64,000 bases of DNA from Coptis chinensis (taxonomy: Eukaryota; Streptophyta; Magnoliopsida; Ranunculales; Ranunculaceae): the NCBI GenBank assembly GCA_015680905.1, contig JADFTS010000044.1:124001-188000 (forward strand). Direction: 5' to 3'. Positions 5,967 through 63,200 of the stretch are shown here, one piece after another. The position numbers and the translations under genes are program-made. A model generated the notes under the pieces. That model did not search any database, was not told the DNA's origin, and saw nothing but the letters and a program-made list of their open reading frames with translations. Every line of letters begins with the position of its first letter. Position 1 is the stretch's first letter.

Positions 5967-8900
5967 CTAATGGTATCCAATAGGAGCTGGAGCCTCCCTC
6001 AATTCCTTTCCATGGAAATGAATATCCTGCATGACAAAATAAGGTTGTTAGACACAGAGCAAAATGAGTCTAAAATGTGTAAACTAAGTTGCTTCCAAGA
6101 TGCATGATACTCCCCGACCAAGATATTAGAGCAGATATCAAAGTAAAAAGTTAAACACTGGATATTTCAGATATTGGAAAAGGTAGCAATGCTTACAGAA
6201 GCAAAGTGGTTGACATCTCGATGGTGAGCTTCATCAGCTCGGATCACTGTAATAACATCCTTCAGAGTGGCATCCTTGGGCAGCCTCCAGTAGTCTATAG
6301 CAATAGCAGGAGCAGGAACATTTTCAATTGCACCACTTTCAATATCCTTTAAGAATTCGGTATATGAATGTATTGCCTCCTCTTCCAGATACCCAACAAC
6401 TCTATGCGCCACTTTGGGGAAAGTAAATAGAGCACAAAGAAGGCATTGAAAAAAACTCCCTGCACGGTGAGAACAAGTACTCTCTCGTACCATTTTGGTT
6501 TCACAAGCTCTACCATCGTCATTAAGTGCATTCTTTCATTTTCTGCTTCCTCAAGTAAAGCCTTGATCCAACCACCACTTTGCTGGAACTTGCGGAGTGA
6601 CCTAAGGTGCAGCAACATACCTCCCACCATTCCTGGAACAGCCGCCACTGTTTCCAGCATCATTGCACGACATCCATACCGTCTCTGCATCATAAATGCT
6701 AAAATCAGAGCCAGAGACTAGTAACAGCAATACTATACTATGTGACTTGTAGAATTGAATGTCCAGTATGTCTGGAATAGCAACAATCAAATGTAGTATT
6801 TGGGAGACTGGGTCAACAACAAAGAGAAGATATGATCCAGAGTTAAAATTAAGAATTCATGATACCCAAAAGAACCTTTTTCTAAAGCAATGTACAAGTA
6901 TCCCAACTACAGTTTTTCAATGATAGAACTTGGAAATATGAGCAAAACTTAAGGTCTTCATTTCTCTTTCTTGGAACCCTCTGAGTTTTTCTGTTCAGTA
7001 TTATACTCTTAGGTTTGCATACCATCAAATCCCAGTCAAAAACTCCATCCGTGGTCACATTGCTTCAATCGAACACTTTGTTAGAAAAATGATTTGCTCA
7101 AATCCATTTGAGATATGAATGAGTAATTTGTCTCCCAAGTTATCCCATATTGTGATGAAATGGGTTTATCTTGAAACAGTACGTAAAGTGAGAAAAATCT
7201 TTTCGAAATGGTGCACTAGTTCGAAACAGTGTATCATGCCGAAAAGGTGTGACCTTTCGAAATGTGCACTGGTTCGAAACAGTGCATCATGCCGAAAAAG
7301 TGCGACCTTTCGAAATGTACACTGGTTCGAAACAGTGCATCATGCCGAAAAGGTGTGATATTTCGAAATAGACACTGGTTCGAGACAGTGCTTTATACCG
7401 AAATGGTGTGTCTTTTCGAAACATGTGACTTTTCAAAGAGTTGCTTACTTTTTCTCAAGAGTCACTGTGTTGTTTCGAAGAGGCACCACTCACCTATAAA
7501 TAGTAGATGAATTTGAAAAGAAAGATACACCAGATCACATAGAGTTCTGATCTTTCTCTTTTCCCTCTGTTCTTAGTCAAATACTATGTTGTGTTCGCTG
7601 AGTCTATAGAATTGAAGTGCTAGCTTTCCATAGAAGAAAATTCATTCTATCTTGGGAGACAGTTTCTCATCAACCTTCAAGCACCGTGAGGGAGAAAATC
7701 TGTCTTAAGGACATAGTGAATCTTCACTAGACTCGGATTTAATAATTGGTAAATTAAGTTCATTAGTTGAACTAAAAGTTTTTTCATGATATATTTGTTA
7801 TATCAATTTGATTTTCTTGTTTACTTAACAATAAATATATTTTTGGAATAAATTTCCTACACACTTCGGATGACAGAAGAGGCATTATCTTTTATCAGTT
7901 TATTTCCAATCAATCACAGTCCACCTCAGAGAACCCGTTACAGGCTGAAGCTATGATGCACAAATACTCCTAAAATGTCACTGCACCCGTATTGGTCGGG
8001 TATGATACTGATACGGGTATTGGATACTTTTAGGATACTGGAATCCCTGAAATAAACCTGCTCTGATAGTTCTACTCCATTGAAATGTAAAATGTTCTTG
8101 AGGCTTAAGATGTATTGACTTTGACATGTGTTATAATAGTTTTTCGCATGTTCTTGACTAACTTTACTCAAAGAACTACTAACATAATTTTCAGAATACA
8201 CATATTTTAAAATATTCATATTAATTAGTCGTATCCATAGGCCGTACCCATATCCTAATATTTCAAAAAAAACCGTATCGTACCACGTACCGGTGTCACT
8301 GTATCGGTACCTAGGGCAGTCAATAGATCGATTTGGGTTGGGTTCTGAAAAATCCGAACCCGAACCGATAAGAAAGTTAGGAATCTGAAACCGAACCAAA
8401 CCGATAAAAAAATTGAGAACCCAAAACCGAACTGAACTAAACTGAACCGATAAAAAAATTGGGAACCCAAAACCGAACCAAACCGATAAGAAATATTGAA
8501 AACCGAACCCGAACCGAAAACTATAAAATCAATTAAATCTTAAATTAAATCAATTAATTTCAACTACACAATTGATAAACATATACAAAATTAATCATAA
8601 ATATTACTAAAATGTCATCTTATTGGTTCAGGTTCATATCGTTTCGGTGGAGGGCAAACCCGAAACCAAACCAATATCTTATCGGTTCGGTTTCAGATCG
8701 GTAGAAAATAAATCAAATTATTAAAACCCAAACCGTTTTTTATCGGTTTGGTTCGGGTCGGTTATCGGGTTATCGAAACCCATTGACAGCCCTATCGATA
8801 CCCATACCCTAACCGTGCATCATAGGGCTGAAGCAATAAAAGAAATCAATGATAGAAAAGGTGTATCATTTGAATTTGATTTGGAACTTTAGTTAACGGT

Positions 8901-10774
8901 TTGGGCATCAAGGAGTCAGTAACTTCAGCCTCTGCGAAAATTCTTGGTGCTTAAGAGGGAAAATCCTTACAGGAGGTTGTGCACATCTAGGATGTACTTG
9001 TATAAAAGATTGACTGGCCCAACAACTCAGAAACCAGGGAAAAGAATGCTATTCAAGTAAACTAATCATATTCGTTCAAATACTTGCCACCAGAAAAATA
9101 ACTGCAAAACACGATCAGGAGTGCAGTACAGTCAATCCTTTAAGGCACCCAACTCTTTGACCAAGAATAACTTCAATCACATATAATGAGGCCTTCTATA
9201 ATGATATTAATGGGGGCTGAAAGTTTTTTGTAAATAGCATGCATGAATGAACTAAGAAAATAAAGTCCTACCTGAAAGAAGACATCCGTTGGAATTCTAA
9301 GAAGTTTCACTGTCCTATAAGCAACCTTGTCAAGGAATGTCTTAGGTACATGGTGCTTGCTTAGATCAATGGACACATCAGCCCTGTATGTGTCCCACGG
9401 CTGTCAAATGAACAATATACTAGTTAAATCAAACGCCACAACAAATAATAAAAATTCATGTTTGTTAATCTAATGTTTTTCATGGAGAATGATGATTTTC
9501 AAGTTCCAAGTATAGTCCGTAAAGGCATCTAATTAAGTGTTTGAGAGAGCGTATTTAGTACCAACAAGAAGGTTTTACGGATTTAAGAAGTCCAACATTT
9601 CAGTCACTAAAGTTTGGAGCAATCACAAGAACATAAGATAAGTTGCTCTTTGATTAAATGGCAATAATGATAAGCTCCTAGGAAATGGACCATAATCACC
9701 ATATCTACATTTATAAAATCTCATGGATACATTTGTATGGGTACAGCTACCTTATGTCATAGTGTTCTATACGTATAGCTTGGTGTATCAATTATTGTTG
9801 CACATGGTACTTTAGTCGATATGTGATTTCTACTTAAGGAATCAGTTTCTTCACTAACTACAAAGCATACATGGCTTCCTTAGTCGTCATTCACAATAGC
9901 CATGCTTCCAAGTTCCATTAATTAGAAGTTCCATTGAGGTCCGTGCAACAACTGATAAGCAAGTCTCTAGTATACAAACATACTATCAATTTTCATTTCA
10001 CTTGTTTGCAGATAGAGTAATATGATATTACACGATTGGTTATTAAGGGTTATATTGTAGGAGACAAGCTTTTCCTAAACAAATAAAAATCTAAATCACT
10101 GTACTTAGCTTGCACACTGTTTTACAAAGAAGGATGAAATGTTAGGAACCAACTAATACTCCTCGAACGAGTTCGTTGCCATGGAGCTCAAAACTAATTA
10201 TAGGATGATGTACGTTGAAAAAAAAAATTAAATTTTATAGAAAGAGCAACAGAGAGTCCAAAACCAGTAAAGCAACTATGATATCATCTAAATTCCCTTT
10301 ATTTAGTAGCACCAAATAAATTCAATGCGTTAAATATATAAGTAAAATAAAGCTACTTGTAATTACAACATAATTAAAGATGGGTTTTTAATTATTTCTC
10401 AAGACAATAAAGTAAAGTAGTGAGAATTGGATTCTTTGGCTTACATTGAAGCAATTCCAAGGCCAGACGGTGCCATCTTCCTTGGTAATACTCGGCCTCG
10501 AAACTCCCCAATAGCTGGAAACAACCACTTGTGGCCGCTCTATGCCCTTATGATCATCAGGAACAACCAATTTCTCCTCCTTGGTAGTAGTCTTCTCTGG
10601 AGAAGAAGAGAAAGAACGAGTGAAGAACAAGTAAGTGGGTTGCACCACTGGGGCAGCTCTAGTGTCACTGACAATTCCAGACAAAGAAGAAGAGATGAAA
10701 GCTGATGATGAGTTTTGAGTTTTGAGTAGACATCTAAGCAAGGAAGAGGATCTACTACTGAATACTCGATTCAT
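5967..10774 (-). CDS. AOX2: Mitochondrial alternative oxidase, AOX2-like, with an apparent frameshift in exon 3
   Basis: Four exons: 10774-10445, 9400-9272, 6684-6197 and 6026-5967. The four-exon layout is the standard AOX one: exon 2 is exactly 129 nt, while exon 3 is 488 nt instead of the usual 489. The product (about 335 residues if read in frame) starts with a mitochondrial presequence ([18 protein letters not shown]), then WPWNCF (regulatory Cys I, residue 108), RRYGC (Cys II, residue 158), the di-iron motifs [23 protein letters not shown] and [11 protein letters not shown], and the end [12 protein letters not shown] oxidises ubiquinol at the inner mitochondrial membrane and bypasses complexes III and IV. 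Near 6415, after YLLSPK, the frame shifts by one base and resumes as [12 protein letters not shown]. Intron 2 carries a solo LTR and two nested transposons, and a transposon dimer begins 66 bp upstream of the ATG. WPWNCF and the neighbours favour AOX2 over AOX1. Confidence 0.93.
7079..7861. mobile_element. Solo LTR of an LTR retrotransposon in AOX intron 2
   Basis: A 783-bp segment starts TGTTAG, ends CCTACA and is flanked by the perfect 5-bp target duplication CACTT (7074-7078 and 7862-7866). No internal retroelement sequence lies next to it, so it is a solo LTR left by recombination between two LTRs. The perfect duplication suggests a moderately young insertion. The superfamily (copia or gypsy) cannot be told from the LTR alone. 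Confidence 0.8.
7195..7425. repeat. 53-bp tandem repeat inside the solo LTR
   Basis: About four units with a 53-bp period. The motif TCGAAACAGTG recurs at about 7221, 7274 and 7327, with GCATCATGCCGAAAA and CCTTTCGAAAT between. TTCGAA palindromes recur throughout. Such arrays are common in the U3 part of plant LTRs. Confidence 0.85.
7951..8825. mobile_element. hAT-type non-autonomous element with a second element inserted in it
   Basis: The termini are an 11-bp inverted repeat CTATGATGCAC / GTGCATCATAG flanked by the perfect 8-bp duplication GGCTGAAG (7943-7950 and 8826-8833), which is the hAT hallmark. Without the nested insertion the element is about 384 bp. It is rich in GTATC/GATAC words and has no coding capacity. 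It lies in AOX intron 2. Confidence 0.82.
8312..8794. mobile_element. hAT-type MITE (TAGGGCNGTCAAT family) nested in 7951-8825
   Basis: 483 bp bounded by TAGGGCAGTCAAT and its imperfect inverted copy ATTGACAGCCCTA. It is flanked by 8-bp duplications TCGGTACC (8304-8311) and TCGATACC (8795-8802), with one mismatch. The interior is made of repeated AACCGAACC / GGTTCGGTT words that fold back on themselves. It is younger than its host element because it interrupts it. Confidence 0.85.
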
Positions 10775-10805
10775 TTTCAGACAAACTACGTTAGATTAAC
10801 AGGGT

Positions 10806-10808
<3 letters not shown>
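10766..10808. repeat. AOX leader segment duplicated on the far side of the transposon dimer (left copy)
   Basis: TTTTCAGACAAACTACGTTA followed by GATTAACAGGGTTG here is repeated with small changes at about 24246-24285 (TTTTCAGACAAAGTACGTTA, then GATTAA and GATTAACAGGATTG). The two copies bracket both microsatellites and the whole transposon dimer. Confidence 0.7.

Positions 10809-10839
<31 letters not shown>
10808..10839. repeat. (AT)n microsatellite at the left edge of the transposon
   Basis: About 16 TA dinucleotides directly abut the first terminal inverted repeat. The right edge of the dimer abuts another TA run, so the element appears to have gone into, or carried, a TA microsatellite. 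Confidence 0.95.
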
Positions 10840-10843
<4 letters not shown>

Positions 10844-11292
10844 TTGTCTAGAGTGCCACTCTTATAGTGACACTCTTATCTCACACTCCTCTTGAACCGT
10901 CAGATCTCAAGATGAAATCATCAGATCTAATTCTGATAAAAACGCGAAATTTCAAATTATTTCGGAAACCTAAAAACAAAAAAATGCGAAATTTTTGATT
11001 ATCTCTCATGGTCTTCTTCTCCACTCCAGAAATTTTTGAATCTACAAAAAAGTGAACCATCTCCGAGAAATTCAACCCCCATTCAAGTCTTGTGAAGAAG
11101 GATTCAAATAGGTGCGGTTTCTCTCTCGATCTATTTTTTTTTCTATCTCTCTCTTGAATTTCCAAGCCTTTTAAATTAAAACATCTCTCTAAATTAATTA
11201 TTTATTTATTACACACAAATTCCACTCCCATTACTTATTTCTATTCAATTTTTAAGTTCCAAATCTTGTTTACGAGCCTACTTGATTAGATA

Positions 11293-12079
11293 ATGGCGAA
11301 GGCGGTGGATGACATATGAAGAAGCGTGCAATGTTGCTCTTCCTGTGTATGCTCTTCACTTCCGATATGGAACTCAATTTACTCGTTTTACATTTTATAT
11401 ACTAATTTTCCAATATTTATTTGTTGTAGACTTTGGAATAACTTGAGAAAACACAATGGAGAGCGTTATGCATATTCAAGTCATTCACAAGCTGTTCTTG
11501 ATTGTTTTTGAAAACAGAAATGAATGGGCTCAATTGGTTGATCGTGGTCCCAAGGTATACAAACGAAAATCAATGTGAAACTTTCTATTTCTTTGGTGTT
11601 CAATGAAAAGTTATTTCTTTTTTGAAGATATGGCCTACAGCATCAATAGTAATAGAATAGTGGTATTCCTAGTAGACAATTAACTATTAGAGCATAAACA
11701 ATTGACTTCCCGATCAATTAAAAGCAAGAGGCCGACAAGTAACACACGAGATATTTATATATCCTAATATGTTATGGTACAAGTTCTTTCTAAGCATGAA
11801 AATCCGTTAGAAAAATTGTTGAATGGTGTCTTGTATTTTTTGCATCGAATGGTGGAAGGAAGAAACGCATGAAGCCTAACTCGAGTCACCTCTAGTTGAA
11901 ACAGGAGGAGATTGAATATGCCAAGGGGAGAACCACAAAGGAGCTAGAAAGTAAAATTGTTGGGTCACCTGAGAAGACTTCCCTAAAGGCAAGAGGAAAG
12001 CTTGAAAGCAATCGATTGGCCTTTGCAAGGAAAAGGAGTATGAGAGGCCGGGGAAGGGGCGAAAAAGCAAATCTTTATT
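11293..12079 (+). pseudogene. Captured fragment of an unidentified host gene (copy 1)
   Basis: This corresponds to the better-read version at 17957-18740. Frames here are interrupted, but they show NNLRKHNGERYAYSSHSQAV and ESPLVETEEIEYAKGRTTK, followed by ELESKIVGSPEKTSLKARGK. The last part becomes basic (RKRSMRGRGRGEKA). I do not recognise the family. Introns with GT..AG borders are kept, so the capture was of genomic DNA and not of cDNA. Confidence 0.6.
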
Positions 12080-12776
12080 CGGATGAACTCATTGCCAATG
12101 TACACCCCTGGAAGGGTATCCTTCTTCTTGATGAGTCTCTTTGGAACAATTGGGAAGCGTCTATCCAAAGATCAATTAATGAGAATGCTAATGGTTTGGC
12201 GGGTATGCCATCATCCGTCAAGAAAATGGTTTTAGTTCAATCGTTGAGCGAGAGATCTTGGTTGATGGATCTCATGACATTGACCGTTGTGTTGATGTGG
12301 ATGGCGAGTACTTGCTGCTGCCTGTTACAAGGCATTGAATGACCACAAGGTTACGCTCAAGGAACTCTATTGAAGCCCAACATGGTGACTCAATGCCAAG
12401 AAGGTAGCCCGGAGGTCATTCCCGAATACACGGTGTGTGCCTTTGCGACAAACAATGCCCCGGTACCGTTCTTGCGGTGGTGTTCTTGTCGGTGTGAATG
12501 AATGAAGAAGCGAGGCCACAATTAACCTTAATGCAATGAACCCGCTCAAAGGAAAGAAGCCATGGTCACTCTCATTCTCCTTTGGGCGTGCTCTCCAGTA
12601 GAGTACTCTCAAGGCATGGTGCGGAAAAGTGGAAAATGTGGAGAAGGCGCAGTCTGCCTTCCTCGCAAAGGTGTAAGGCAAACTCAAAGGCCACCCTTGG
12701 TACCTACAAAGGGTGATGCATTTGTTGGAGATGGTGCTTGAAAGGCCTTCATGTCAAGGATTACAAGTCTCTTGAT
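12080..12776 (+). pseudogene. Captured cytosolic fructose-bisphosphate aldolase fragment (copy 1)
   Basis: Same captured gene as at 18741-19415. In changing frames one reads [34 protein letters not shown] and LLKPNMVTQCQEGSPEV, which are aldolase signatures, then AQSAFLA-like and LHVKDYK near the end. Several small indels break the frame. Many lie at CAG/CTG positions where the other copy reads differently. Confidence 0.75.
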
Positions 12777-13734
12777 GAAGTTTTGTGTTTTAGTATTGCG
12801 ATTTTATGAGTAGATCTGAGGGAAAAATTTGGAGATAAAGTCCGCGTCTTTAAGGCTTAATGTTTAGATCTTTTTTCTGCGTAGTTGAGTGAGGCTGATT
12901 TAATAATTTTGGGGGCATGTTTGTTGAGTTCGAATGTTTCTCTCCAAGTGATTTGTCTTGTTTTAATGCTTTCTCGATGAATTTTATGTTTTGCTCTTTT
13001 TTTTGAACCTCTTTATAGTGTATGTGTTGACTTGTTGTATTTTTTCGCCATTTTCATTTGGATTAGGCTTCATGCTAATGTCAATGAGAGTTTAGGTGGT
13101 GTATACAACTCCCTATATTTTTCCCTGGATTCATCTTTGATTCTATTTGACATAACGATTGAATTTGGACTCTAATAGAGGATCTCATTCTTCTTCTAAA
13201 GAAACTCTACGACCATCACCGTCACTCTCCTTTATAGCTCCCATTGTTACAAATCTTGGAGACTTCTTATGACTAGCGACAAAGCTTTGAAGCTCAATTC
13301 TTCCACCGAAGTCACACCACCAAAAAAAGAAGTTTAATAAGAAGGATTAGCACAACGGTTGTAACCATTGGGATTGTGAGAGAGAGTAATCATTAGCCGA
13401 ACGCCGAAAGACACATCGACTACCCAATGGAGTCGAAGAAGCCGCCCATGGACTAAGCGGCCGCACCGGATCATTACGACCATCTTGCCACCCCATCGGT
13501 TCAAAGGTCCATGAAATTTCACCTTGCCATGACATATCATCATTGCTACCCAAATGGAGTGATTGGAGATGGATGGTATCTCACCCCACGGAATACCTCC
13601 GACTTTTCTTGAATAGCAAGACACTGAAAACTCCCAAAGCCCCCACAAAATATCGATGCCGATGCCATGCCAATATAAAACCAACTCATTTTGATTTGAA
13701 CTTGGATCGAAAAAAAGCGGTGTATTAATGCTGT

Positions 13735-14490
13735 TTGGACTTTGTCCCCAACGGCATGGCCACACCGTTTGGCCTTAGTACCAAACGGTGTGGCCATGCC
13801 GTTTGGGACTAAGGCAAACAAACGTAACCATGCCGTTTGGGACAAAGTCCAAACAGACACACCATTTTTTTCAAGTTCAAATCCAAAGGATATGGCCACA
13901 CCGTTTGGACTTAGTTCCAACGGCATGGCCACACCGTTTGAGACTAAGGCCAAAGCGGTGTGGCCATGCCGTTGAACTTTGAACTTGCAAAAATGGCGGT
14001 GTCTGTTTTTGGACTTTGTCCCCAAGCGGCATAGCCACACCGTTTGGACTTAGTCCCAAGCGGCATGGCCACACCGTTTGGTACTAAAAGGCCAAACGGT
14101 GTGGCCATGCCGTTTGGGACTAAGTCCAAACGGTGTGGCCATTATAGTTTGGCCTTAGTACCAAGCGGCATGGCCACCCGTTTGGCCTTAGTACCAAACG
14201 GTGTGGCCATGTCGTTGGGGACTAAGTCCAAACAGACACGCCATTTTTGCAAGTTCAAAGTCAAACGGCATGGCCACATCGTTTGGCCTTAGTCCCCAAA
14301 CGGCATGGCCACACCGTTTGGTACTAAGGCCAAACGGTGTATGCCGCTTGGGGGACTAAGTCCAAACGGTGTGGCCATGCCGTTTGGGACAAAGTCCAAA
14401 CAGACACACGCCATTTTTTGCAAGTTCAAATCCAAACGATATGGCCACACCGTTTGGACTTAGTCCCAAACGGTGTGACCACACCGTTCA
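13735..14490. repeat. Palindromic tandem array, copy 1
   Basis: About 750 bp built from one near-palindrome: CAAACGG, then CA or TG, the core TGGCCA, CA or TG, then CCGTTTG. It is spaced by GGACTTAGTCC (itself a palindrome) or GCCTTAGTACC. The block appears in both orientations, so the array is a chain of potential hairpins. Spacers containing AAACAGACAC...CCATTTTT and CAAGTTCAAA recur every few units. The repeat length keeps long frames open on both strands; I regard them as by-products. Confidence 0.9.
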
Positions 14491-16309
14491 AGAGGCAAAA
14501 AAACAGATCTTTTGTGTTTTGGCAAAAACATTGCGTACTGCATTAGATTTTTGTGTTTTGGTAAATAACATTGGGATTTTTGTTGATAACATTGGGATTT
14601 TTGTGTTCTGCATTAGATTATTAATAGAGATACTTCGCTGTGACAAATTAAAATGCGCAAATTGTCGGAGAGCACAAGAAGAGCCATTGAATGGATATAA
14701 ACTGAGATCTAAGCAAAGCACATACGCTGACCACGTAAATAGTATAACTGTTTACTCCACTGACAGCAGACGTCCTATTAAAATCAATGCCTGCTAATAG
14801 CAGAAACATAACCAAAGGCAATGTGACATGAAATAGATGAAACCTAGGATCTTAGGTGAACATGAAAAGAATGACAAGTCCAAAGCAAGATCACTATCAT
14901 TTCATATTTCAACAATGTGACACCATGTGAAATACATTGTCCGAATTTATCGAACATAAAGCTAAGTTGCTACATATCAACAACTTGCACTTACAAAAGA
15001 GTCCTAACATAACATTTTTTGACTACAAAGAGATTTCCAATCTAACTTTCTGACTTTAGTTGTATATCTAACTCTTTGTTCTTTATCTCCTTCCTGCAAA
15101 ACAAAAAAATTGAATAAACAGATCAGTCAAGCAAAGTTAAATCAAACTGCTTTATTAAGGTCTGACAAAAAAACTAACCTCTCCACTTGCTTCCTCATGT
15201 TCACCATCTTCCGCCACCACCATTTGCCTAATTACCCCCCAATAAAAACACATGAATAAGTATAAATACTACCACATATGTCAAATCCAACACCAAATCT
15301 AGAAACCTCATGAATCGGTGGGATTTGTTTTCGGGGGCAAGATGATGACCATGTGTAAGAGTTAATAATGGTCTTGTATGATTATTTGATTCTTTTGTTG
15401 AGAACTTGAATTTAGAATGACCTTTCATTTTGATTGTTATGATTGTCACATAAACTTTTCAATGAAATCCTTCAGTATAAGTTTTGTAAGTTTAAGTTGA
15501 TTCTTCTTGTAGTACATGGTACTATGGTAGTGGTGGGAGGCGAACCAAATTAATGACCACGAATAGGCGGCAATCTCCGCCCGTTATGCAATATCCCTCA
15601 AGCTTCATCCACGTTTTACTTAGTAACTAGTTTTGTAAGGACCGATAACTATCGAGAATATAATAATCGGTTTATAAGTAACTTTCCCACAATACCGGAT
15701 AGATCACTTGATCGAGACATCCTATGGGTTTGGAGCGAGTCAAAATGCAGACCTGCATTTCAGCTTTTTCACTATCCCATCATAGTATCTTTGTTTTAGA
15801 AGCGTTGGCGTCTGAAGGAGTTGTATTCCTTATTGTTCCGAAAGCATGAAGTAGTAGGATTATTACCTCGACCATGCACAAGTAATTACTACCTCAAGCT
15901 AGATCATACAAGTAGTAGGATCACTATTATAAGGTTTTACATGCCACCGAGCACTATCCATATATACACACCACAAGTAATATATACATTTGTATGTCCT
16001 TCAACCTCAAATTCTTAAGACCTCACCATTTGTCGCTGCCCTTCTTACCATCTCTCTCTCAAGAATGACCACCACCCTTCACGGCTGACCTTGGTTTACT
16101 AGAAACCTCACAAAGGCATGATATCCGATATTTTCAATAGCTCCAAATGTTTTGAACAATCTAAACTTGTCATTTCTTCCATCAAAGATCTATGCAACAA
16201 CCGGCTCTGGGGCGTCTACCGGTGAATTCATCCCCTTAACGAGAATGATTGGTTCTATTGTGATAGTTTATTGGAACTAGAAGCTCCTTTGGAGTGTGAA
16301 TAATCCTTA
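14491..16309. other. Unassigned interior of transposon copy 1
   Basis: No recognised gene. Duplicate words TTTGTGTTTTGG and AACATTGGGATTTTTGT occur near 14510-14600. On the minus strand around 15228-15449 a short frame has a hydrophobic stretch (FLDLVLDLTYVVVFILIHVF) and may be another captured exon. Near 16150-16300 the words KLVISSIKDLCNNRLWGVYR and NENDWFYCDSLLELEAPLEC can be read, which look like coding remnants of unknown origin. Confidence 0.45.
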
Positions 16310-16955
16310 CCAGTGAATTCAAAACTCTGACAGAGTTGAAAGCTCTGATAGAGTTCACCGAACTCTGACAGAGTTCAAAACTCTGACAGAGTTCACCGAA
16401 CTCTAACAGAGTTCAAAACTCTAACAGAATACGGCATGAAGAATACGACAGAGTTCAAAGCTCTGGCAGAGTTCACCGAACTTCGGCGAGTTCAAAGCTC
16501 GGCGAGTTCAAAACTTCGGCGAATACGGCATGAAGAATACGGACGAGTTCACGAACTCCCGGCGAGTTAAAGCTCGGCGAGTTCAAAACTCGACGAGAAT
16601 CGACTGAAGAATACGACGAGTTCAAAACTTCGGCGAGTTAAAAGCTTCGGCGAGTTCACCGAACTTCGGCGAGTTCAAAACTCGGCGAGAATCACGGCAT
16701 GAAGAATATGACAGAGTTCAAAACTCGACCTCGTCTCCGAAACTTCGGCCGAGGTCACCGAACTCGACGAGTTCAAAACTCTGACGAGAATCTGGCATGA
16801 AGAATACGACACGAGTTCAAAACTCGGCGAGTTCACCGAACTTTGAGAATCACGACATGAAGAATACGGCGAGTTGAAAGCTCGACGAGTTCACCGAACT
16901 CGGCGAGAATCTGACAAAGTTTACTTCCAATCTGAGAATCTGACGAGTTCACCGA
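16310..16955. repeat. CTCTGACAGAG palindrome array, copy 1
   Basis: Tandem units of the palindrome GAACTCTGACAGAGTTC alternate with AAA-linked half sites and a longer phrase ending GGCATGAAGAATACGACAG. The first ~130 bp is regular. Later units read CTCGACGAG or CTCGGCGAG, losing the T of CTG and the A of CAG. I think this is reading error rather than divergence. Confidence 0.85.
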
Positions 16956-17230
16956 ACTATATCGCGTTTTAAACAACAATATAAACAATTTCATACCCAA
17001 TTCATACTTGTTTACTTGTCTAAGTTCATAAACAATTGAACCAAAGCGTTTTAAACTTGTTTACTTGTCTAAGTTCATACCCAATTTTATGTTTTAAACA
17101 ACAATATAAACAACATCCAAGAATAAAGTTTACTAGGTTAGTTCATACCCAATTTGGCGTTTTAAACAACAATATAAACAACATCCAAGAATAAAGTTTA
17201 CTAGGTTTATTTCAAAACGAATCCAAGCTA
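16956..17230. repeat. TTTTAAACAACAATATAAAC tandem repeats, copy 1
   Basis: Three to four repeats of the phrase GCGTTTTAAACAACAATATA plus AACAACATCCAAGAATAAAG or CTTGTTTACTTGTCTAAG, with AAGTTCATACCCAATT between them. Non-coding subterminal region of the transposon. Confidence 0.75.
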
Positions 17231-17956
17231 ATTAAATAACAAATCAAAGCGAATTAAAAGTGGAAAAATACCTTAATCCATAAGCTTGGTTCAAACCGAG
17301 AAGAAGAAGAAGAGAGAGAGAGAGAGAGAGAGTTTTGAATTTAAGTGATTTTTGTGATTTTCGTTTTTTTATTTTGAAATACCGCGAAATATTGAAATAT
17401 CGGTTTTATCGATGGTTTTAGATCTTCGATCTTGAGGCGAATCCGACGGCTCAAGAGGAGTGTGAGATAAAGAGTGTCACTATAAGAGTGGCACTCTAGA
17501 CAAACCGTCGGTTTGTCTAGAGTGCCACTCTTATAGTGACACTCTTATCTCACACTCCTCTTGAACCGTCGAGATCTCAAGATGAAATCATCGGATCTAA
17601 TTACGATAAAAACGCCAAATTTCAAATTATTTGGAAACCTAAAACAAAAAATCGAAATTTTTTGATTATCTCTCATGGTCTTCTTCTCCACTCCGAAATT
17701 TTTGAATCTACAAAACTGAACCATCTCCGGAAATTCAACCCCCATTCAAGTGTTGACGAAGAAGGATTCAAATAGGTACGGTTTCTCTCTCGATCTATTT
17801 TTTCTCTATCTCTCTCTTGAATTTCCAAGCCTTTTAAATTAAAACATCTCTCTAAATTAATTATTTATTTATTACACACAAATTCCACTCCCATTACTTA
17901 TTTCTATTCAGAATTTTAAGTTCCAAATCTTGTTTACAGGCCTACTTGATTAGATA

Positions 17957-18740
17957 ATGAGCGAAGGCAGGTGGATGACATATGAAGAACTGTGCAATGT
18001 TGCTCTTCCGGTATGTGTATGCTCTTCACTTCTGATATGGAACTCAATTTACTCTGTTTTACATTTTATATACTAATTTTCCAATATTTCGCTGTTGTAG
18101 CACTGGAATAACTTGAGAAAACACAATGGAGAGCGTTATGCATATTCAAGTCATTCACAAGCTGTTCTTGATTGTTTGCGAAACAGAAATGAATGGGCTC
18201 AGCTGGTTGATCGTGGTCCCAAGGTATACAAACGAAAATCAATGTGAAACTTTCTATTTCTTTGGTGTTCAATGAAAAGTTATTTCTTTTGAAAGATATG
18301 GCTGCGATCAATAGTAATAGAATAGTGGTATTCCTAGTAGACAATTAACTATTAGAGCATAAACAATTGACTTCCCGATCAATTAAAAGCAAGAGGCCAA
18401 CAAGTAACACCGAGATATTTATATATCCTAATATGTTATGGTACAAGTTCTTTCTAAGCATGAAAATCCGTTAGAAAAATTGTTGAATGGTGTACTGTAT
18501 TTTTCAGACGAATGGTGGAAGGAAGAAACGCAAGCCTAACTCTGAGTCACCTCTAGTTGAAACAGAGGAGATTGAATATGCCAAGGGAGAACCACAAAGG
18601 AGCTAGAAAGTAAAATTGTTGGGTCACCTGAGAGAAGACTTCCCTAAAGGCAAGAGGAAAGCGAAAAAGCAATCGATTTAACAATTTGCAAAGGAAAAGG
18701 AGTATGAGAGGCCGGAAGGGGCGAAAAGCAAATCTTTATT
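17957..18740 (+). pseudogene. Captured spliced fragment of an unidentified host gene (copy 2)
   Basis: Three exons with consensus borders: 17957-18010 (MSEGRWMTYEELCNVALP), 18101-18223 (HWNNLRKHNGERYAYSSHSQ, then AVLDCLRNRNEWAQLVDRGP, K) and one from 18508 (TNGGRKKRKPNSESPLVETE, then EIEYAKG). The first two are in phase and open. The third continues as a Lys/Arg-rich tail and runs into aldolase sequence, making a chimeric gene. The N-terminal block looks like a conserved plant nuclear protein, but I cannot name it. A transcript from the element would read away from AOX. Confidence 0.65.
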
Positions 18741-19415
18741 ACGGATGAACTCATTGCCAATGTACACCCTGGAAGGGGTATCCTTCTTCTGATGAGTCTC
18801 GGAACAATTGGGAAGCGTCTATCCAAAGATCAATTAATGAGAATGCTAATGGTTTGGCCGGGTATGCCATCATCATCAAGAAAATGGTTTCGTTCAATCG
18901 TTGAGCGAGAGATCTTGGTTGATGGATCTCATGACATTGACCGTTGTGTTGATGTGGCGGCGAGTACTTGCTGCACTGTTACAAGGCATTGAATGACCAC
19001 AAGGTTCTGCTCAAGGGAACTCTATTGAAGCCCAACATGGTGACTCAATGCCAAGAAGGTAGCCCGGAGGTCATTCCTCAATACGCGTGTGTGCCTTGCG
19101 ACAAACAATGCCCCCTGTTTCTTGCGGTGGTGTTCTTGTCGGTGACGGATGAAGAAGCGGCCACAATTAACCTTAATGCAATGAACCACTCAAAGGAAAG
19201 AAGCCATGGTCACTCTCATTCTCCTTTGGACGTGCTCTCCAGAGTACTACTCAAGGCATGGTGCGGAAAAGTGGAAAATGTGGAGAAAGCGCGCAGTCGC
19301 CTTCCTCGCAAGGTGTAAGGCAAACTCAAAGGCCACCCTTGGTACCTACAAGGGTGATGCAACTGTTGGAGATGGTGCTTCAGAAGGCCTTCATGTCAAG
19401 GATTACAAGTACTGA
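18741..19415 (+). pseudogene. Captured, internally deleted cytosolic fructose-bisphosphate aldolase (copy 2)
   Basis: Class I aldolase signatures occur in the right order across nearby frames: [70 protein letters not shown] (with the Schiff-base Lys of LLKP), [39 protein letters not shown] and the native C-terminus LHVKDYKY followed by its own stop at 19415. About 120 residues between GKRLS and NENANG are missing, so the fragment cannot be a working enzyme. The HVKDYKY ending marks the cytosolic plant isoform. The following ~400 bp (to about 19800) is probably captured aldolase 3' UTR and flank. Confidence 0.88.
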
Positions 19416-20339
19416 TGAAGTTTTGTGTTTTAGTATTGCGATTTTATGAGTAGATACGAGGGAAAAATTTGGAGATAAAGTCTGTCTTTAAGGCTTAATG
19501 TTTAGATCTTTTTTCCTGCGTAGTTGAGTGAGGCTGATTTAATAATTTTGGGGGGCATGTTTGTTGAGTTCGAATGTTTCTCTCCAAGTGATTTGTCTTG
19601 TTTTAATGCTTTCTCTGATGAATTTTATGTTTTGCTCTTTTTTGAACCTCTTTATAGTGTATGTGTTGACTGTTGTATTTTTCGCCATTTTCATTTGGAT
19701 TAGGCTTCATGCTAATGTCAATGAGAGTTTAGGTGGTGTATACAACTCCCTATATTTTTCCCCTGGATTCATCTTTGATTCTATTTGACATAACGATTGA
19801 ATTTGGACTCTAATAGAGGATCTCATTCTTCAGCTAAAGAAACTCTACGACCATCACCGTCACTCTCCTTTATAGCTCCCATTGTTACAAATCTTGGAGA
19901 CTTCTTATGACTAGCGACAAAGCTTTGAAGCTCAATTCTTCCACCAGAAGTCACACCACCAAAAAAAGAAGTTTAATAAGAAGGATTAGCACAACGGTTG
20001 TAACCATTGGGATTGTGAGAGAGAGTAATCATTAGCGAGCGCCGAAAGACACATCGACTACCCAATGGAGTCGAAGAAGCCGCCATGGACTAAAGCTGCG
20101 CACCCAGATCATTACGACCATCTTGCCACCCCATCGGTTCAAAGGTCCATGAAATTTCACCTTGCCATGACATATCATCATTGCTACCCAAATGGAGTGA
20201 TTGGAGATGGATGGTATCTACGCCCACCTGGAATACCTCCAGCTTTTCTTGAATAGCAAGACACTGAAAACTCCCAAAGCCCCCACAAAATATCCTCTGA
20301 TGCCATGCCAATATAAAACCAACTCATTTTGATTTGAAC
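19416..20339 (+). other. Aldolase 3' flank and further unassigned capture in copy 2
   Basis: The part after the aldolase stop is T-rich and non-coding. At 20065-20256 an open frame reads [20 protein letters not shown], then [20 protein letters not shown] and [10 protein letters not shown]. It has no homologue I recognise. The same stretch in copy 1 (near 13410-13600) is interrupted. It could be a third captured exon. Confidence 0.4.
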
Positions 20340-21130
20340 TTGGATCGAAAAAACGGTGTGTCTGTTTGGACTTTGTCCCAAACGGCATGGCCACACCGTT
20401 TGGCCTTAGTACCAAACGGTGTGGCCATGCCGTTTGGGACTAAAACAAACGGTAATAACCATGCCGTTTGGGACAAAGTCCAAACAGACACACCATTTTT
20501 TTTTTCAAGTTCAAATCCAAAGGATATGGCCACACCGTTTGGACTTAGTTCCAAACGGCATGGCCACACCGTTTGAGACTAAGGCCAAACGGTGTGGCCA
20601 TCTTGAACTTGAACTTTGAACTTTGCAAAAATGGCGTGTCTGTTTGGACTTTGTCCCCAAACGGCATGGCCACCCGTTGGACTTAGTCCCCAAACGGCAT
20701 GGCCACACCCGTTTGGTACTAAGGCCAAACGGTGTAACCATGCCGTTTGGGACTAAGTCCAAACGGTGTGGCCACATAGTTTGGCCTTAGTACCAAAGCG
20801 GCATGGCCACACCGTTTGGCCTTAGTACCAAAGCGGTGTGGCCATGTCGTTGGGGACTAAGTCCAAACAGACACTCGCCATTTTTTGCAAGTTCAAAGTT
20901 CAAACGGCATGGCCATACATCGTTTGGCCTTAGTCCCAAACGGCATGGCCACACCGTTTGGTACTAAGGCCAAACGGTGTGCCATGCCGTTGGGACTAAG
21001 TCCAAACGGTGTGGCCATGCCGTTTTCAGGACAAAGTCCAAACATTAACCGCATTTTTTTTTGCAAGTTCAAATCCAAAGCGATATGGCCACACCGTTTG
21101 GACTTAGTCCCAAACGGTGTGACCACACCG
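20340..21130. repeat. Palindromic tandem array, copy 2
   Basis: The same CAAACGG...TGGCCA...CCGTTTG chain as in copy 1, in the same order, with scattered one- and two-base differences. Confidence 0.9.
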
Positions 21131-22964
21131 CTCAAGAGGCAAAAAAAACAGATCTTTTGTGTTTTGGCAAAAACATTGCGTCTTGCATTAGATTTTTGTG
21201 TTTTGGTAAAATAACATTGGGATTTTTGTTGATAACATTGGGATTTTTGTGTTCTCGCATTAGATTATTAATAGAGATGCTTATTTGTGACAAATTAAAA
21301 TCAAATTGTCCGAGAGCACAAGAAGAGCCATTGAATGGATATAAACCGAGATCTAAGCAAAGCACATATCGCAGCACTGGTAAGTAGTATAACTGCTGTT
21401 TACTCCAATCGACAGCGAGACGTCCTATTAAAATCAATGCCTCGCTAATAGCGAAACATAACCAAAGGCAATGTGACATGAAATAGATGAAACCTAGGAT
21501 CTTAGGTGAACATGAAAAGAATGACAAGTCCAAAGCAAGATCACTATCATTTCATATTTCAACAATGTGACACCATGTGAAATACATTGTGCGAATTATT
21601 GAACATAAAGCTAAGTTGCTACATATCAACAACTTGCACTTACAAAAGAGTCCTAACATAACATTTTTGACTACAAAGAGATTTCCAATCTAACTTTCTC
21701 GACTTTAGTTGTATATCTAACTCTTTGTTCTTTTTATCTCCTTCCCCAAAACAAAAAAATTGAATAAACGGATCATCGGTCAAGCAAAGTTAAATCAAAC
21801 CGCTTTATTAAGGTCCCACGGAAAAACTAACCTCTCCACTTGCTTCCTCATGTTCACCATCTTCCGCCACCACCATTTGCCTAATTACCCCCAATAAAAA
21901 CACATGAATAAGTATAAATACTACCACATATGTCAAATCCAACACCAAATCTAGAAACCTCATGAATCGGGGATTTGTTTTCGGGGCAAGATGATGACCA
22001 TGTGTAAGAGTTAATAATGGTCTTGTATGATTATTTGATTCTTTTGTTGAGAACTTGAATTTAGAATGACCTTTCATTTTGATTGTTATGATTGTCACAT
22101 AAACTTTTCAATGAAATCCTTCAAGATAAGTTTTGTAAGTTTAAGTTGATTCTTCTTGTAGTACATGGTACTATGGTAGTGGTGGGAGCGAACCAAATTA
22201 ATGACACGAATAGGACCGGCAATCTCCGCCCGTTATGCAATATCCCGAAGCTTCATCCACGTTTTACTTAGTAACTAGTTTTGTAAGGACTGATAACTAT
22301 CGAGAATATAATAATCGGTTTATAAGTAACTTTCCCTGTACCAGCATAGATCACTTGATCGAGACATCCTATGGGTTTGGAGCGAGTCAAAATGCAGACT
22401 GCATTTCAGCTTTTTCACTATCCCATCATAGTATCTTTGTTTTAGAAGCGTTGGCGTCCTGAAGGAGTTGTATTCCTTATTGTTCTGAGCATGAAGTAGT
22501 AGGATTATTACCTCGACCATGCACAAGTAATTACTACCTCAAGCTAGATCATACAAGTAGTAGGATCACTATTATAAGGTTTTACATGCCACTGAGCACT
22601 ATCCATATATACACACCACAAGTAATATATACATTTGTATGTCCTTCGAACCTCAAATTCTTAAGACCTCACCATTTGTCGCCTGCCTTCTTACCATCTC
22701 TCTCTCAAAGAATGACCACCACCCTTCACGGCTGACCTTGGTTTACTAGAAACCTCACAAGGCGCATGATATCCGATATTTTCAATAGCTCCAAATGTTT
22801 TTGAACAATCTAAACGTCATTTCTTCCATCAAAGATCTATGCAACAACCGGCTACGGGGCGTCTACCGGTGAATTCATCCCGCTTAACGAGAATGATTGG
22901 TTCTATTGTGATAGTTTATTGGAACTAGAAGCTCCTTTGGAGTGTGAATAATCCTTACCGGTGA
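21131..22964. other. Unassigned interior of transposon copy 2
   Basis: Counterpart of 14491-16309. A minus-strand frame at 21808-22098 reads MTIITIKMKGHSKFKF and later FMRFLDLVLDLTYVVVFILI, with EDGEHEEASGEV at its end. It is a possible captured membrane-protein exon with no family identified. Confidence 0.4.
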
Positions 22965-23600
22965 ATTCAAAACTCGGCGAGTTGAAAGCTCGATAGAGTT
23001 CACGAAACTCGACGAGTTCAAAACTCGACAGAGTTCACCGAACTCTAACGAGTTCAAAACTCTAACGTAATCACGGCATGAAGAATACGACCAGAGTTCA
23101 AAGCTCGGCAGAGTTCACCGAACTTCGGCCGAGTTCAAAGCTCGACGAGTTCAAAACTCGACGAGAATCGGCATGAAGAATACGACGAGTTCACGAACTC
23201 GACAGAGTTAAAGCTCGGCGAGTTCAAAACTCCCCACGAATCGACGACTGAAGAATCTGACCGAGTTCAAAACTCGACGAGTTAAAAGCTCGGCGAGTTC
23301 ACCGAACTTCGGCGAGTTCAAAACTCGGCGAATCGGCATGAAGAATATGACAGTTCAAAACTCGACCTCGTCTCCAGAACTCGGCGAGAGGTCACCCAAC
23401 TCGACAGAGTTCAAAACTCCTCGACGAGAATCACGGCATGAAGAATCTGACGAGTTCAAAACTTCGGCGAGTTCACCGAACTTTGGAGAATCGACATGAA
23501 GAATACGACGAGTTGAAAAGCTCGGCAGAGTTCACCGAACTCGGCGAGAATCTGACAAAGTTTACTTCAATCTGAGAATCTGACCCGAGTTCACCGAACT
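22965..23600. repeat. CTCTGACAGAG palindrome array, copy 2
   Basis: Counterpart of 16310-16955. Here almost all units are in the shortened CTCGACGAG or CTCGGCGAG form, including units that read CTCTGACAGAG in copy 1. Confidence 0.85.
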
Positions 23601-24148
23601 ATATCGCGTTTTAAACAACAATATAAACAATTTCATACCCAATTCATACTTGTTTACTTGTCTAAGTTCATAAACAATTGAACCAAGCGTTTTAAACTTG
23701 TTTACTTGTCTAAGTTCATACCCAATTTTGCGTTTTAAACAACAATATAAACAACATCCAAGAATAAAGTTTACTAGGTTAGTTCATACCCAATTTCGCG
23801 TTTTAAACAACAATATAAACAACATCCAAGAATAAAGTTTACTAGGTTTATTTCAAACGAATCCAAGCTAATTAAATAACAAATCAAACGAATTAAAAGT
23901 GGAAAAATACCTTAATCCATAAGCTTGGTTCAAACTGGAGAAGAAGAAGCTGAGAGAGAGAGAGAGAGAGTTTTGAATTTAATTGATTTTTTTGTGATTT
24001 TCGTTTTTTATTTTGAAATACCGCCAAAATATTGAAATATCGGTTTTATCGATTGGTTTAGATCTTCGATCTTGAGGCTTAGATCCGACGGCTCAAGAGG
24101 AGTGTGAGATAAGAGTGTCACTATAAGAGTGGCACTCTAGACAAACCG

Positions 24149-24199
<51 letters not shown>
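24149..24199. repeat. (TA)n(TG)n microsatellite at the right edge of the dimer
   Basis: About 14 TA units followed by about 11 TG units directly abut the right terminal inverted repeat. Confidence 0.95.
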
Positions 24200-25007
24200 T
24201 TTTTAAATAATAATAATAGAGTGAATCGGGTATTTATATGTATATTTTCAGACAAAGTACGTTAGATTAATAATAGATTAACAGGATTGTACATTTGTTT
24301 TTTGTCATGGTTTTATAGTTTTAGTGTTATTTTTGGAGTGTATAAATAAACTTTAAAGAATAAAATGAGATATTTATATGTCCTGTGTGTTCAATAGGCA
24401 AAATTTAAAATGAAAAAAAAAAACAAAAAATACAAAAAAAATATATGTTGCGGCAAATGTGGGATATGAGATCTCGTGATAACCAGATACCGTGGATTGT
24501 GTGATCTTGCGGCAACTGCCGTAGAATATGAGATCTCGCATTAACTGTCTACCGTAGAATTATGAACATATGGGGTGTAAAAAGACATATAAGAAATAAC
24601 CATTATTATTTTATTTTTTGTCAAAATAGTGCTAGTCCTATTTATAGAGTGTCAGTGGGGCGTTTCTATATTTATATGTATATATTTATGTTTTTTAAAT
24701 AATAATAATAGAGTGAAGTTTCCCCAGCTTTTCGGAGGAAAGAACGGACACAGAGACAGGTTGATGCATGTGGTTCGGTGTCTAAAATAAAATTAGAAGC
24801 GGGTTCGGTGTATCTCATTGTGATTGGTTGGCCTAACTCATTCTGAAGTTCCTAACAAAGACAAACAGCACTGTCCTTTTAGTATTACCAATAATGAAAG
24901 AGATTGCCTCGTCCAGAATAACAGAAGATCTTTGAACTTGGCCCATCTAGGATTTGAGGACCGGCAAAATTATTAAAGGCGGTTCGGATGTTGGGTAAGA
25001 CCCAATG
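24200..25007. other. Displaced AOX upstream region
   Basis: No gene is seen. The ~50-bp phrase TTTTTTAAATAATAATAATA GAGTGAA with neighbouring ATTTATATGTATAT occurs twice (near 24200 and 24695), a local duplication. Short repeats with GAGATCTCG and TGCGGCAA lie at 24445-24560. The copy of the AOX leader at about 24246-24285 suggests the original AOX promoter continues to the right of it. Confidence 0.5.
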
Positions 25008-25662
25008 TAGTGGAGTCAAATGGGTCAAACAATGAAGCCCTCATGCTTTGAGGGCCGAGCCAGTCCTACTCTCATTTATCTTGAGGGCCAAGTCGGGTCG
25101 AGTCAATGCTTAAATCTCGAAGTCTTTATTCCACTCGAAAAATAAAATTTCATAAGGGCTTGAATATAGAGGAATAAGAAACGCGTGATTCAAATCTTAT
25201 CTTTAAACATTTGATTTACAAAATAAATTTAAAACATTAGTTAAAAATGATAAAATCGAATCGATTTCACAATTAAACCTTCAAACTACTAAAAAAGATA
25301 AAAAGTTGTATTAGTCAATTAAGATTAGTTAAATTCATTTCATAAAAATATTATAATGAAATTATAAGGTTGGCAAACTTAATAGATAAACGTTCTTTTT
25401 AAGTGATTTTTAGCATATTAATGCTAAAATAAAATATATTGTAAAAAAATTTATTAAAATTTATGTAATAAATGTTGAGGGCCTAATGAGGGTCAGGCTT
25501 AAGAGAGGGCTTAAGTTTCAAAGTCTAGGCCCTTACCCTCCCCTTAAATGCTTGAGGGCCGGGTAGGCTCAACCCACGAATATGTGAAGGCCTCATTTTG
25601 AGGGTTTTTTCGGCCCATGGGCCGGGTGGGCAGAAGGTTTGAGGGCCATTTTGACACCCCTA
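25008..25662. mobile_element. hAT-type non-autonomous element, 655 bp
   Basis: The ends TAGTGGAGTCAAATGG and CCATTTTGACACCCCTA are imperfect inverted repeats. Perfect 8-bp duplications ACCCAATG stand at 25000-25007 and 25663-25670. The interior is rich in GAGGGCC words and has no coding capacity. Confidence 0.85.
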
Positions 25663-60254: not shown

Positions 60255-63200
60255 ATGATGATGGAAGAGCCCCAACAAGTTATGATGAACTTGGAGAGAA
60301 GCAGCACCAACGACTACAAGAAGAAGCGTCGACCCAATAGACGTACTTGTTCTAAACAACAACAACAAATCATAAACAATTCTTCTTCAGGTATACAAAC
60401 TAATAACTAGTTCAACTCTCAAATTGTTATTTCTATCATTGATAAAAAACAGTTCTTTCAGCCACAGTTTATTCAACCAACGGGGACCCAACTCCTCTTG
60501 ATCTTGTTGCTTCCACTTCTCTCCCACACTTGCATGTTCTTAGATCTTCTCCTCCCCCAAATGGATACGCAAATCACCTGGAAGCCCACACGCCTAGGAT
60601 TTGTTTTGAGCCTCATTGGTCACCTCAACTTGTCAATGCTGCTATACAGGTTACTGTTATTACCGACCTTAAATATATCTTATCACATGCTCCTAGAATT
60701 TGTTTTACCACTCTTTTCTTTTCTGCAGAATGCCCATGTCTTCGTAGCAGCGTTTCGTGTGAATGCTCACAATCGCCTTGAGGTGTCTATCTTATCTTTT
60801 TACTCCGCTAGTATAAAACTAACTTTCTTATTCTGTAGATTACTAAGTTTTTGTATTGCAGGCTTACTGTACAATAGATGGGCTGCCCATAGATGTTCTT
60901 ATTAGCGGAGGTGCAGCTCAAAACAGAGCTGTAAGGAGTGTTTTTTTTTATCTTTCATTTTGTTTTTAGACTTTTCGCCTCCCCTACCATGCACGAAAGA
61001 GTTTTCAAAGTTGAATTCTGTTTGATGCAATTTGTTGTTGCAGGTGGAAGGAGACCTTGTAGCAGTTCAATTGGATTCTTTATCATTGTGGACAAGGCTG
61101 AAAGGGTCTGCTGGCCACACTAAAAATTGCACCCCTTTGGATGGTTTGGTCTTACTCGCCAAAGAGGTCCAAGGGGTTGGTGATAACTGCAACCTGAAGG
61201 AAAAAGTAGATGATTGCAATGACGACCCTAACAAAAATAGCTCTTCGTCTTCAGATCCCTCAAGCCCAATAGGAAAGATTTGTGCCTTAGTTAGTGCTTT
61301 TCCATCTAAGCGTCCGACCGGCAGAGTTGTAGCTATCATTCAAAAGTCGCCTCGCCGTGATGCCCTTGTTGGCTTTCTTGGTGTTAGCCAATGGCGGCCT
61401 TCTGGCGGAGAAGGCTTTCAGAAGGAGACGAACCAAAATAAGACTTTTGTCTCATATTCCAATCAGGAATTCATTGAATTGATACCAAATGATGCAAAGT
61501 TTCCTAAAATGTTGGTTTGTTTGAGAGACTTACCAGAATACATCAAGAAAAGATTGATGAAGAGTGACGCGATGGAGTTAGTGGGTGTTCGGATTGAAAA
61601 TTGGAGGGAAGACAGTCTTTTACCGCATGCCTGTGTTATGCATAGTTTTGGGCGAGGGGGAGAAATTGAGCCACATCTTGCAGCAATCCTATTTGAAAAT
61701 TCAATTTGCGTTACTGAGTTTTCTCCTGAATCACTTTCCAACCTTCCAAAATTCCCGTGGGAAGTGCCTGCCGAGGAGTTAGAAAGAAGAAAAGATCTTA
61801 GACATCTTTGCACACTTACAATTGACCCTTCTACAGCTACTGATCTTGATGATGCTCTATCAGTTCAAAGAGTCTCTGATAGCATTTTCAGAATTGGTGT
61901 GCACATTGCTGATGTTTCATATTTTGTTTTACCGGATACTCCATTGGACATAGAAGCCCAAACCCGATCTACGAGTGTCTATCTCCGACGTCAGAAGATT
62001 CCTATGCTGCCAGCTCTTCTTTCAGAAAACATTGGTTCACTTGTTCCTGGTGTAGATAGGCTTGCCTATTCTATCATGTTTGATTGCAACCTTGCTGGGG
62101 ACGTTGTTGATCGCTGGATTGGTCGCACTGTCATTCGTTCATGTTGTAAACTGTCCTACCAGCATGCTCAGTACATCATCGACGGGTTGATGGATGTTGA
62201 GAGGCATGATACAGTAGTTAGTCAGTTTCCTGAGGTATACGGTCAGTTTGGAAAGGTAGATGTAATTGGGTCTGTCAAAATCCTTACTGAAATTTCTAAG
62301 AGGTTGAAAGAGAACAGGTATAGAGATGGTGCTGTTTATTTAGAAAGCTCCAAGCCATTTTGCTTGTTTGATGAATGCGGAATTCCATACGACAGTAGGC
62401 TATCTCAGCAGACAGAGTCTGACTTTCTTGTTGAAGAATTCATGCTTTTGGCAAATAAAACTGCAGCAGAAATCATATCTAGAGCATATCCTGATTGTGC
62501 ATTATTGCGTAGGCACCCAGAACCTAATGCACGCAAGCTCAAAGAGTTTGAAGTATTTTGGCTTAAGCACGGTTTAGAGTTGGATACTTCTTCTTCCGGC
62601 CAGTTTAACCTTTCGTTGGGAAAGGTTAAAGAAAAGCTCAAGAATGATCCTGTGTTATATGATATTCTTATATCATATGCTTCAAGGCCAATGAATTCAG
62701 CAGCGTACTTCTGTACTGGTGATTTTAGAGACAGAGAGAATGAGTGGGCTCATTATGCTTTAGCAATGCCTCTCTATACACATTTTACTTCACCACTCCG
62801 AAGGTACCCTGACATTGTAGTGCAGCGGACATTGTCTGCTGCCATTGAAGCTGAAGAAAGATATCTTCAGCAACAAACAGCGATGTCTAAATGTATCAAT
62901 GGGGAGGATATAGGGAGAAAATGTTTCAGCAGCCTTTACTTTGATACACATAGTGCTAACTCCAAAGAATGTAGGGAAGCATTGGCTGCTACTGCTTTGA
63001 ACCACAGAGTTCCTGGTATGGAAAAAATTGCAGAAATTGCTGCTTATTGCAATGAGAGAAGACAGGTAATCAGGCATGCTGAGGATGCTGGTGCAAAACT
63101 CTACATGTGGGCGCTTTTGAAAAAGAAAGAGGTATATCTTCTTTTCTGTCCCGCATTCTTCATTTTCTTCTGATGGATTCTTTGAATTATTTCCACAATT

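Follow-up and report, generated by a model that had tools for sequence, protein, structure and literature searches.

In a 64,000-bp window of the Coptis chinensis genome, two full-length copies, A and B, of a transposable element with long terminal inverted repeats (TIRs) follow each other head to tail, separated by a single T without host DNA. The window, by which we mean the whole stretch analysed, comprises positions 124001-188000 of contig JADFTS010000044.1 (C101, 310,763 bp) in assembly GCA_015680905.1, which totals 935.6 Mb in 116 contigs. We favour the reading, with a probability of roughly 0.5, that A and B are large non-autonomous elements of the Pack-MULE type, that is, Mutator-like elements (MULEs) bearing a piece of a host gene, which prefer TA microsatellites, and that the pair arose by local insertion followed by loss of the spacer.

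Structure and kinship of the two copies

Self-comparison of the window detected a sole long direct repeat, 10839-17508 against 17508-24149, with 93.7% identity. Together with the alignment of the element ends, it bears out an earlier note on this DNA, which had described two full-length TIR elements in tandem, with TIRs of ~67 bp, a single T and no host DNA between them: A ends at 17507 and B starts at 17509. The parts of the pair and its borders are as follows:

10840..17507, plus strand: copy A of the TIR element, 6668 bp (self-comparison, pairwise alignment)
17509..24148, plus strand: copy B of the TIR element, 6640 bp, oriented as A (self-comparison, pairwise alignment)
17508..17508, no strand: single-base spacer T, centre of a perfect 38-T-38 palindrome (end alignment)
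10840..10902, plus strand: left TIR of A, near-identical core of ~63 bp (end alignment)
17445..17507, minus strand: right TIR of A (end alignment)
17509..17571, plus strand: left TIR of B (end alignment)
24087..24148, minus strand: right TIR of B (end alignment)
10808..10839, no strand: (AT)16 array, 32 bp, abutting the left end of A (read in the sequence)
24149..24177, no strand: (TA)14T array, 29 bp, abutting the right end of B and followed by a GT run (read in the sequence)

Both copies start with CGGTTTGTCTAG and terminate with CTAGACAAACCG, and all four ends open with CGGTTTGTCTAGAGTGCCACTCTTATAGTGACACTC. Long TIRs, as expected of MULEs, are present in A and B: the four ends are alike over 63 aligned columns except for one indel, an extra T in the right end of A, and one A/G column that splits left from right ends. 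BLAST stretches the TIR match to 67 bp, and weaker similarity reaches ~125 bp. The A-T-B joint forms a palindrome that is perfect for 38 bp on each side and, save for one indel and one mismatch, continues to ~63 bp. TA arrays of at least 8 units occur just twice in the window, touching the two outer ends of the pair; these outer flanks share at least 9 bp of TA with each other, in the parity expected for a 9-bp duplication.

Pairwise alignment of A with B gave 336 mismatches and 138 gap events. In a full alignment that also took in copies C5, C20 and C2b, A and B differ by 340 mismatches in 6543 aligned positions and by 154 gap events, 108 of them of 1 bp; the mismatch counts are 385/6536 for A-C5, 393/6509 for A-C20, 343/6495 for B-C20 and 329/6498 for C20-C5. 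Both a recent duplication and the double assembly of a single element were therefore rejected, the divergence between A and B being near that among separate copies. Since the frequent indels among copies on several contigs may be residual sequence error in repeats, this divergence is an upper bound.

Trees from four segments, lying outside most internal repeats, grouped A with B in three cases (support 0.962, 0.996 and 0.995, the first with four copies only). Sites splitting A, B, C5 and C20 two against two number 34 for the A+B grouping, versus 19 and 13 for the others; this and the A+B clade of the combined tree are as a local copy would give. Topologies grouping A with C5, A with C20 or B with C5 were all rejected (P values of the approximately unbiased test, p-AU, 0.0002, 0.004 and 0.015). 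Judged by these comparisons, A and B are probably sister copies dating from near the time of the family's spread.

Target habit and cargo of the family

We listed 37 element ends from a non-random set of loci, many of them chosen for high similarity or a junction-like look. A/T repeats are touched by 31 of these ends, counting L012 and L028, where two other bases intervene; the six exceptions are the two ends in each of L016 and L025 and those that meet at the window joint. Most copies in this non-random sample thus have the microsatellite flanks that define SaTars and other (TA)n-associated MULEs. L025 (C2:105815383-105822048), situated in ordinary AT-rich DNA, is flanked on each side by CTATATAAA, a target duplication of exactly 9 bp, the sole fitting length among 2-15. 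When the test for duplication length was applied to the six units with two flanks read, the window pair, L021 and a 12-kb unit on C5 fitted odd lengths including 9.

Three features combined, namely long TIRs, a duplication of 9 bp and a target in TA microsatellites, point to the Mutator superfamily; the target site duplication of MULEs is 8-11 bp, usually 9. The same three features are backed as Mutator signs in the accounts of PMC4486113 and PMC5907723. On these sequence features the element is most likely a non-autonomous MULE.

The 12-kb element on C5 (G000:C5:66203077-66215073) has the same TIRs and TA flanks, and L065 inside it contains a Plant mobile domain fragment (PF10536, E 1.1e-17). 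At L021 a MULE transposase fragment (PF10551, E 1.8e-17) is located outside the element. A 312-bp stretch at 15000-15312 matches at least 24 places with 97-99% identity among 40 scored of 204 candidates, and its counterpart lies 5-6 kb from the adjoining block at C2 and C7, a hint of a longer parent element.

The behaviour of the family has close counterparts. As described in PMC5907723, SaTars (gSaTar of guayule, rSaTar of rice) are non-autonomous MULEs flanked by a microsatellite, often (TA)n; some have 9-10 bp duplications in non-repeat DNA, and they stack end to end without nesting, with fusions that lost the linking satellite. The window family shares the microsatellite flanks, the end-to-end stacking and, in L025, a 9-bp duplication in non-repeat DNA. 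The non-autonomous SaTars listed there are 380-1900 bp long and an autonomous one 5.3 kb, whereas A and B have 6.6 kb and a gene fragment; SaTar clusters are mainly of different families, single-type clusters being mentioned for rice, whereas A and B belong to the same subfamily; and SaTar fusions lost element ends too, whereas A-T-B keeps both ends and a T as spacer (PMC5907723). Neither 'head-to-tail' nor 'unequal' occurs in the main text of PMC5907723.

MuTAnT of Medicago truncatula is described as targeting TA microsatellites with a 9-nt duplication, and its TIR search mask, GGGGTTTGCTAGAACA, resembles the CGGTTTGTCTAGAGTG of the window family (PMC4486113). According to the same account, 90% of MuTAnT elements are 200-300 bp, against 6.6 kb for A and B, and a mudrA-like transposase is encoded by a putative autonomous partner, whereas no such partner was found for the window family among the frames scanned. 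Micron of rice and TAFT of maize, likened to our family by description alone, are (TA)n-associated and treated as MULE-like, and TA expansion after insertion is reported for maize elements (all as cited in PMC5907723 and PMC4486113). The A/B pair is a large, gene-fragment-carrying element of a behaviour already described for SaTar and MuTAnT.

The earlier note had called the element gene-carrying. Gene cargo is indeed present, but it amounts to a broken fragment of an aldolase gene:

18953..19315, plus strand: captured piece of a class I fructose-bisphosphate aldolase, in B (Pfam PF00274, E 2.4e-19)
18708..19446, plus strand: span of the aldolase matches in B, in several frames (domain scan)
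12082..13694, plus strand: region of A with homology to the block that carries aldolase in B and in other copies (sequence comparison)
11320..11508, plus strand: short frame of A with a match to DUF7648 (PF24659, E 3.8e-10)

Further aldolase pieces of B lie at 18708-18989 (E 8.8e-6), 19177-19446 (E 8e-5) and 19185-19412 (E 1.4e-4), the last two slightly under the curated cut-off. Because the reading frame in B is broken, we regard the fragment as carried debris; the scanned frames of A gave no aldolase match. The relative L063 has a longer aldolase stretch (E 2.9e-38). Nine out of 10 units under comparison contain the block (C7a has it twice, C2a and C6 have just ~950 bp of it); C3 is without it. 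A host gene fragment is thus carried, as in Pack-MULEs (a name that also appears in PMC5907723), with the difference that this one is frame-broken. The DUF7648-matching frame of A is possibly a second captured gene piece. A literature search on Mutator or Pack-MULE elements with fructose-bisphosphate aldolase found no paper. Apart from the cargo, 13731-14488 in A and 20324-21130 in B form an internal block of a short unit in direct and inverted orientations, and ~16315-16958 and 22963-23557 are likewise internally repetitive.

End-to-end junctions elsewhere in the genome

A genome search for other copies of the TIR and other tandem junctions, proposed in the earlier note, recovered further TIR-spacer-TIR junctions. 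Two specific patterns of the form CAAACCG-spacer-CGGTTTG, run on the assembly with reversed patterns as controls, matched 15 places, and each control matched 0. Three of the 15 were dropped for sharing a common other spacer, ATATTATTTTAGCTTA, which leaves 12 candidate junctions besides the window. Their spacers are A/T-rich and measure 5, 6, 9, 11, 12 (four times), 21 (twice), 25 and 30 bp, the last containing a damaged end; the spacer of the window measures 1 bp. A strict junction pattern matched the window joint only, and the loosest one matched 185 places versus 205 in its control and has no weight by itself.

We read 10 of the 12 candidates as loci (all but C6:90721605 and C7:3919685). Six of them have similarity to the TIR of A on two sides (L013/L062, L017, L054, L058, L060 and L061) and L015 has it on one side only; L059 has a different TIR with no similarity to that of A, and L050 and L051 are two junctions bordering one 15-bp remnant. 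Four more loci with related TIRs on two sides were found by similarity (L010, L014, L016 and L018), of which L016 is without a TA spacer and L010 and L018 each have a clipped end; at L019 and L020 neighbours are present at longer or damaged spacing. End-to-end arrays joined by a microsatellite, as in SaTars, thus occur in this family. Spacers of the form (TA)nT were found with n = 2 (C8), 6 (C4, L014), 10 (C1) and 12 (C7), and the T of the window corresponds to n = 0.

Judged by eye on the letters, five junctions (L010, L014, L054, L058 and L061) join ends that belong to different subfamilies. Such mixed junctions are hard to explain unless separate insertions meet end to end in this genome. 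The statement of the earlier note that independent insertions rarely do so is therefore wrong for this family, given its (TA)n habit and the further junctions, some of them mixed. Chance meeting of random insertions was considered and rejected: with 703 first-look candidates as a rough count of ends in 935.6 Mb, ~0.01 pairs within 25 bp are expected (tenfold more ends would give ~1), against 12 candidates, six of them two-sided.

Two loci look like altered stacks. At L050 (G000:C1:23584078-23584130) the 15-bp remnant CGGTTTGACAAACCG is bordered on each side by an (AT)6 spacer and, farther out, by a TIR, and it looks like an element deleted down to its tips. At L026 (C7:83896902-83906128) two copies are seemingly fused in inverted orientation, with the inner ends lost and the outer TIRs kept, which resembles the fusions described for SaTars.

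Origin of the pair

Under the favoured reading, insertion at the end of an element, the first copy would already have stood in a TA array. A sister copy, probably mobilised nearby, would have inserted into the TA duplication at the end of the first, and the 9-bp duplication made within TA would have left TATATATAT between them, giving element-TATATATAT-element. Lying in the middle of an extended palindrome, this spacer could then have lost TA units through slippage or central deletion until the T alone was left; the loss of TA units at the palindrome centre is the step we infer. We prefer insertion because the mixed-subfamily junctions show that insertion at ends takes place in this genome.

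Several observations weigh against this reading. The earlier note had seen no obvious second target duplication at the junction, and reading of the joint sequence confirmed that a 9-bp duplication is absent there, so that a loss of at least 8 bp at the joint must be assumed. The (TA)nT form is not the rule among junction spacers, as even (6, 12) and irregular lengths are also present. In the duplication test L024 is compatible only with even lengths and L012 with none; a like misfit of duplication lengths is described for SaTars (PMC5907723). The domain scan found no transposase in 66 of the 67 stop-free frames of at least 60 aa of A and B, nor in eight of the 13 frames of L065, part of the 12-kb relative, in a family most of whose relatives are unscanned; the superfamily call therefore rests on the duplication length, the TIRs and the target habit. 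As to kinship, the fourth segment grouped B with C20 (0.885), a grouping that is not rejected (p-AU 0.12), and A+B has a support of 92/99, below the starred level, in a combined tree built from seven copies, the partial ones (C3, C2a, C6 and the second stretch of C7a) having been left aside. Finally, A and B are ~5% apart, which for sister copies would mean an old event or errors in the sequences.

Among the causes that the earlier note had listed, insertion beside an element's end and unequal exchange keep a place, whereas a circular intermediate and an assembly artefact have become less likely. Unequal exchange would have misaligned sister chromatids, pairing the left TA array with the right one, and produced element-(TA)kT-element, whose spacer then shrank to T. 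We treat it as a possible, if doubtful, origin because it accounts together for the head-to-tail orientation and the lack of host DNA. It also predicts that A and B are sisters, and the window's only two long TA arrays are the outer ones, whose phase yields a (TA)kT spacer. Exchange cannot produce mixed-subfamily junctions, which means that insertion at element ends also happens, and the divergence between A and B almost equals that from copies elsewhere. Long terminal repeats (LTRs) recombine in a comparable manner, and we offer tentatively the idea that TA arrays act like LTRs, unequal exchange between those on either side of a cut-and-paste element multiplying it into head-to-tail arrays or cleanly removing it without transposase, with A-T-B as a worn-down product. 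Local re-insertion and TA-array exchange would both lead to a T joint, and the pair fits either.

A circular intermediate is unlikely; here the excised element would have closed into a circle through a T linking its two ends, and recombination or copying would have made the dimer from it. A one-base spacer looks like a circle joint, and circles with microsatellite filler appear as a speculative model in the SaTar paper (PMC5907723). However, the other junction spacers measure 5-30 bp, so that the T seems the end of a series and not a distinct kind, and the present data contain no sign of a circle.

We consider an assembly artefact improbable to a similar degree, whether through a false join, on a small contig, of two remote copies by way of their near-identical TIRs or through collapse of a TA spacer within the palindrome. 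C101 stands apart from the large contigs (eight of 90-125 Mb were seen, plus a ninth of at least 72 Mb), the many 1-bp indels among copies hint at residual sequence error in repeats, and a palindromic joint is hard for reads. Against this, A and B differ throughout and are not one copy assembled twice, a false join would have had just ~63 bp of TIR identity to use, and similar junctions lie on large contigs. The left flank (9700-10790) is moreover unique, no second place for it being found in the assembly; the right flank (24210-25400) has a full match to itself and elsewhere matches in parts only, at ~80%, in many places.

The host DNA on both sides of the pair shares a short sequence, X:

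10773..10812, plus strand: host sequence X, left flank; the 26-bp core is 10773-10798 (assembly search)
24244..24296, plus strand: second copy of X, right flank; the core is 24244-24269 (assembly search)

The core, ATTTTCAGACAAA(C/G)TACGTTAGATTA, occurs within 3 mismatches at these two places of the assembly only. The copies are in direct orientation and align over ~40 bp, the right one with an 11-bp extra piece; the left core stops 9 bp short of the left TA array. X may be an older local duplication that the elements entered, or the mark of a break repair. That the pair formed elsewhere and arrived as a 13.3-kb unit, X being duplicated in the event, for example through staggered-break repair, is very unlikely despite the direct orientation of X around it, because X is too long (~27-40 bp) for a MULE duplication, its second copy lies 66 bp past the right TA array, behind the GT run and other DNA, and it may predate any insertion as a duplication.

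To the left of the pair, alternative-oxidase-like exons lie on the minus strand at 9176-10774; their Pfam match is weak (E 8e-4) and falls short of the curated cut-off. The first of these exons is a candidate, and the putative start codon is 65 bp from A; a long later exon of this locus, in 8301-9450, was not recognised. At 61026-63170 a frame of 715 aa is intact, whereas the element copies are rich in 1-bp indels.

Stacking of such elements was already known from other plants; special here is a large pair of one subfamily with T as its spacer, the n = 0 case of (TA)nT. The pair extends the stacking of microsatellite-targeted MULEs to large elements with gene fragments and to a near-zero spacer. 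A tandem TIR dimer met in a plant assembly is thus not necessarily an artefact or the product of a circle. Should exchange between TA arrays be the source of such pairs, gene fragments could multiply without transposition.

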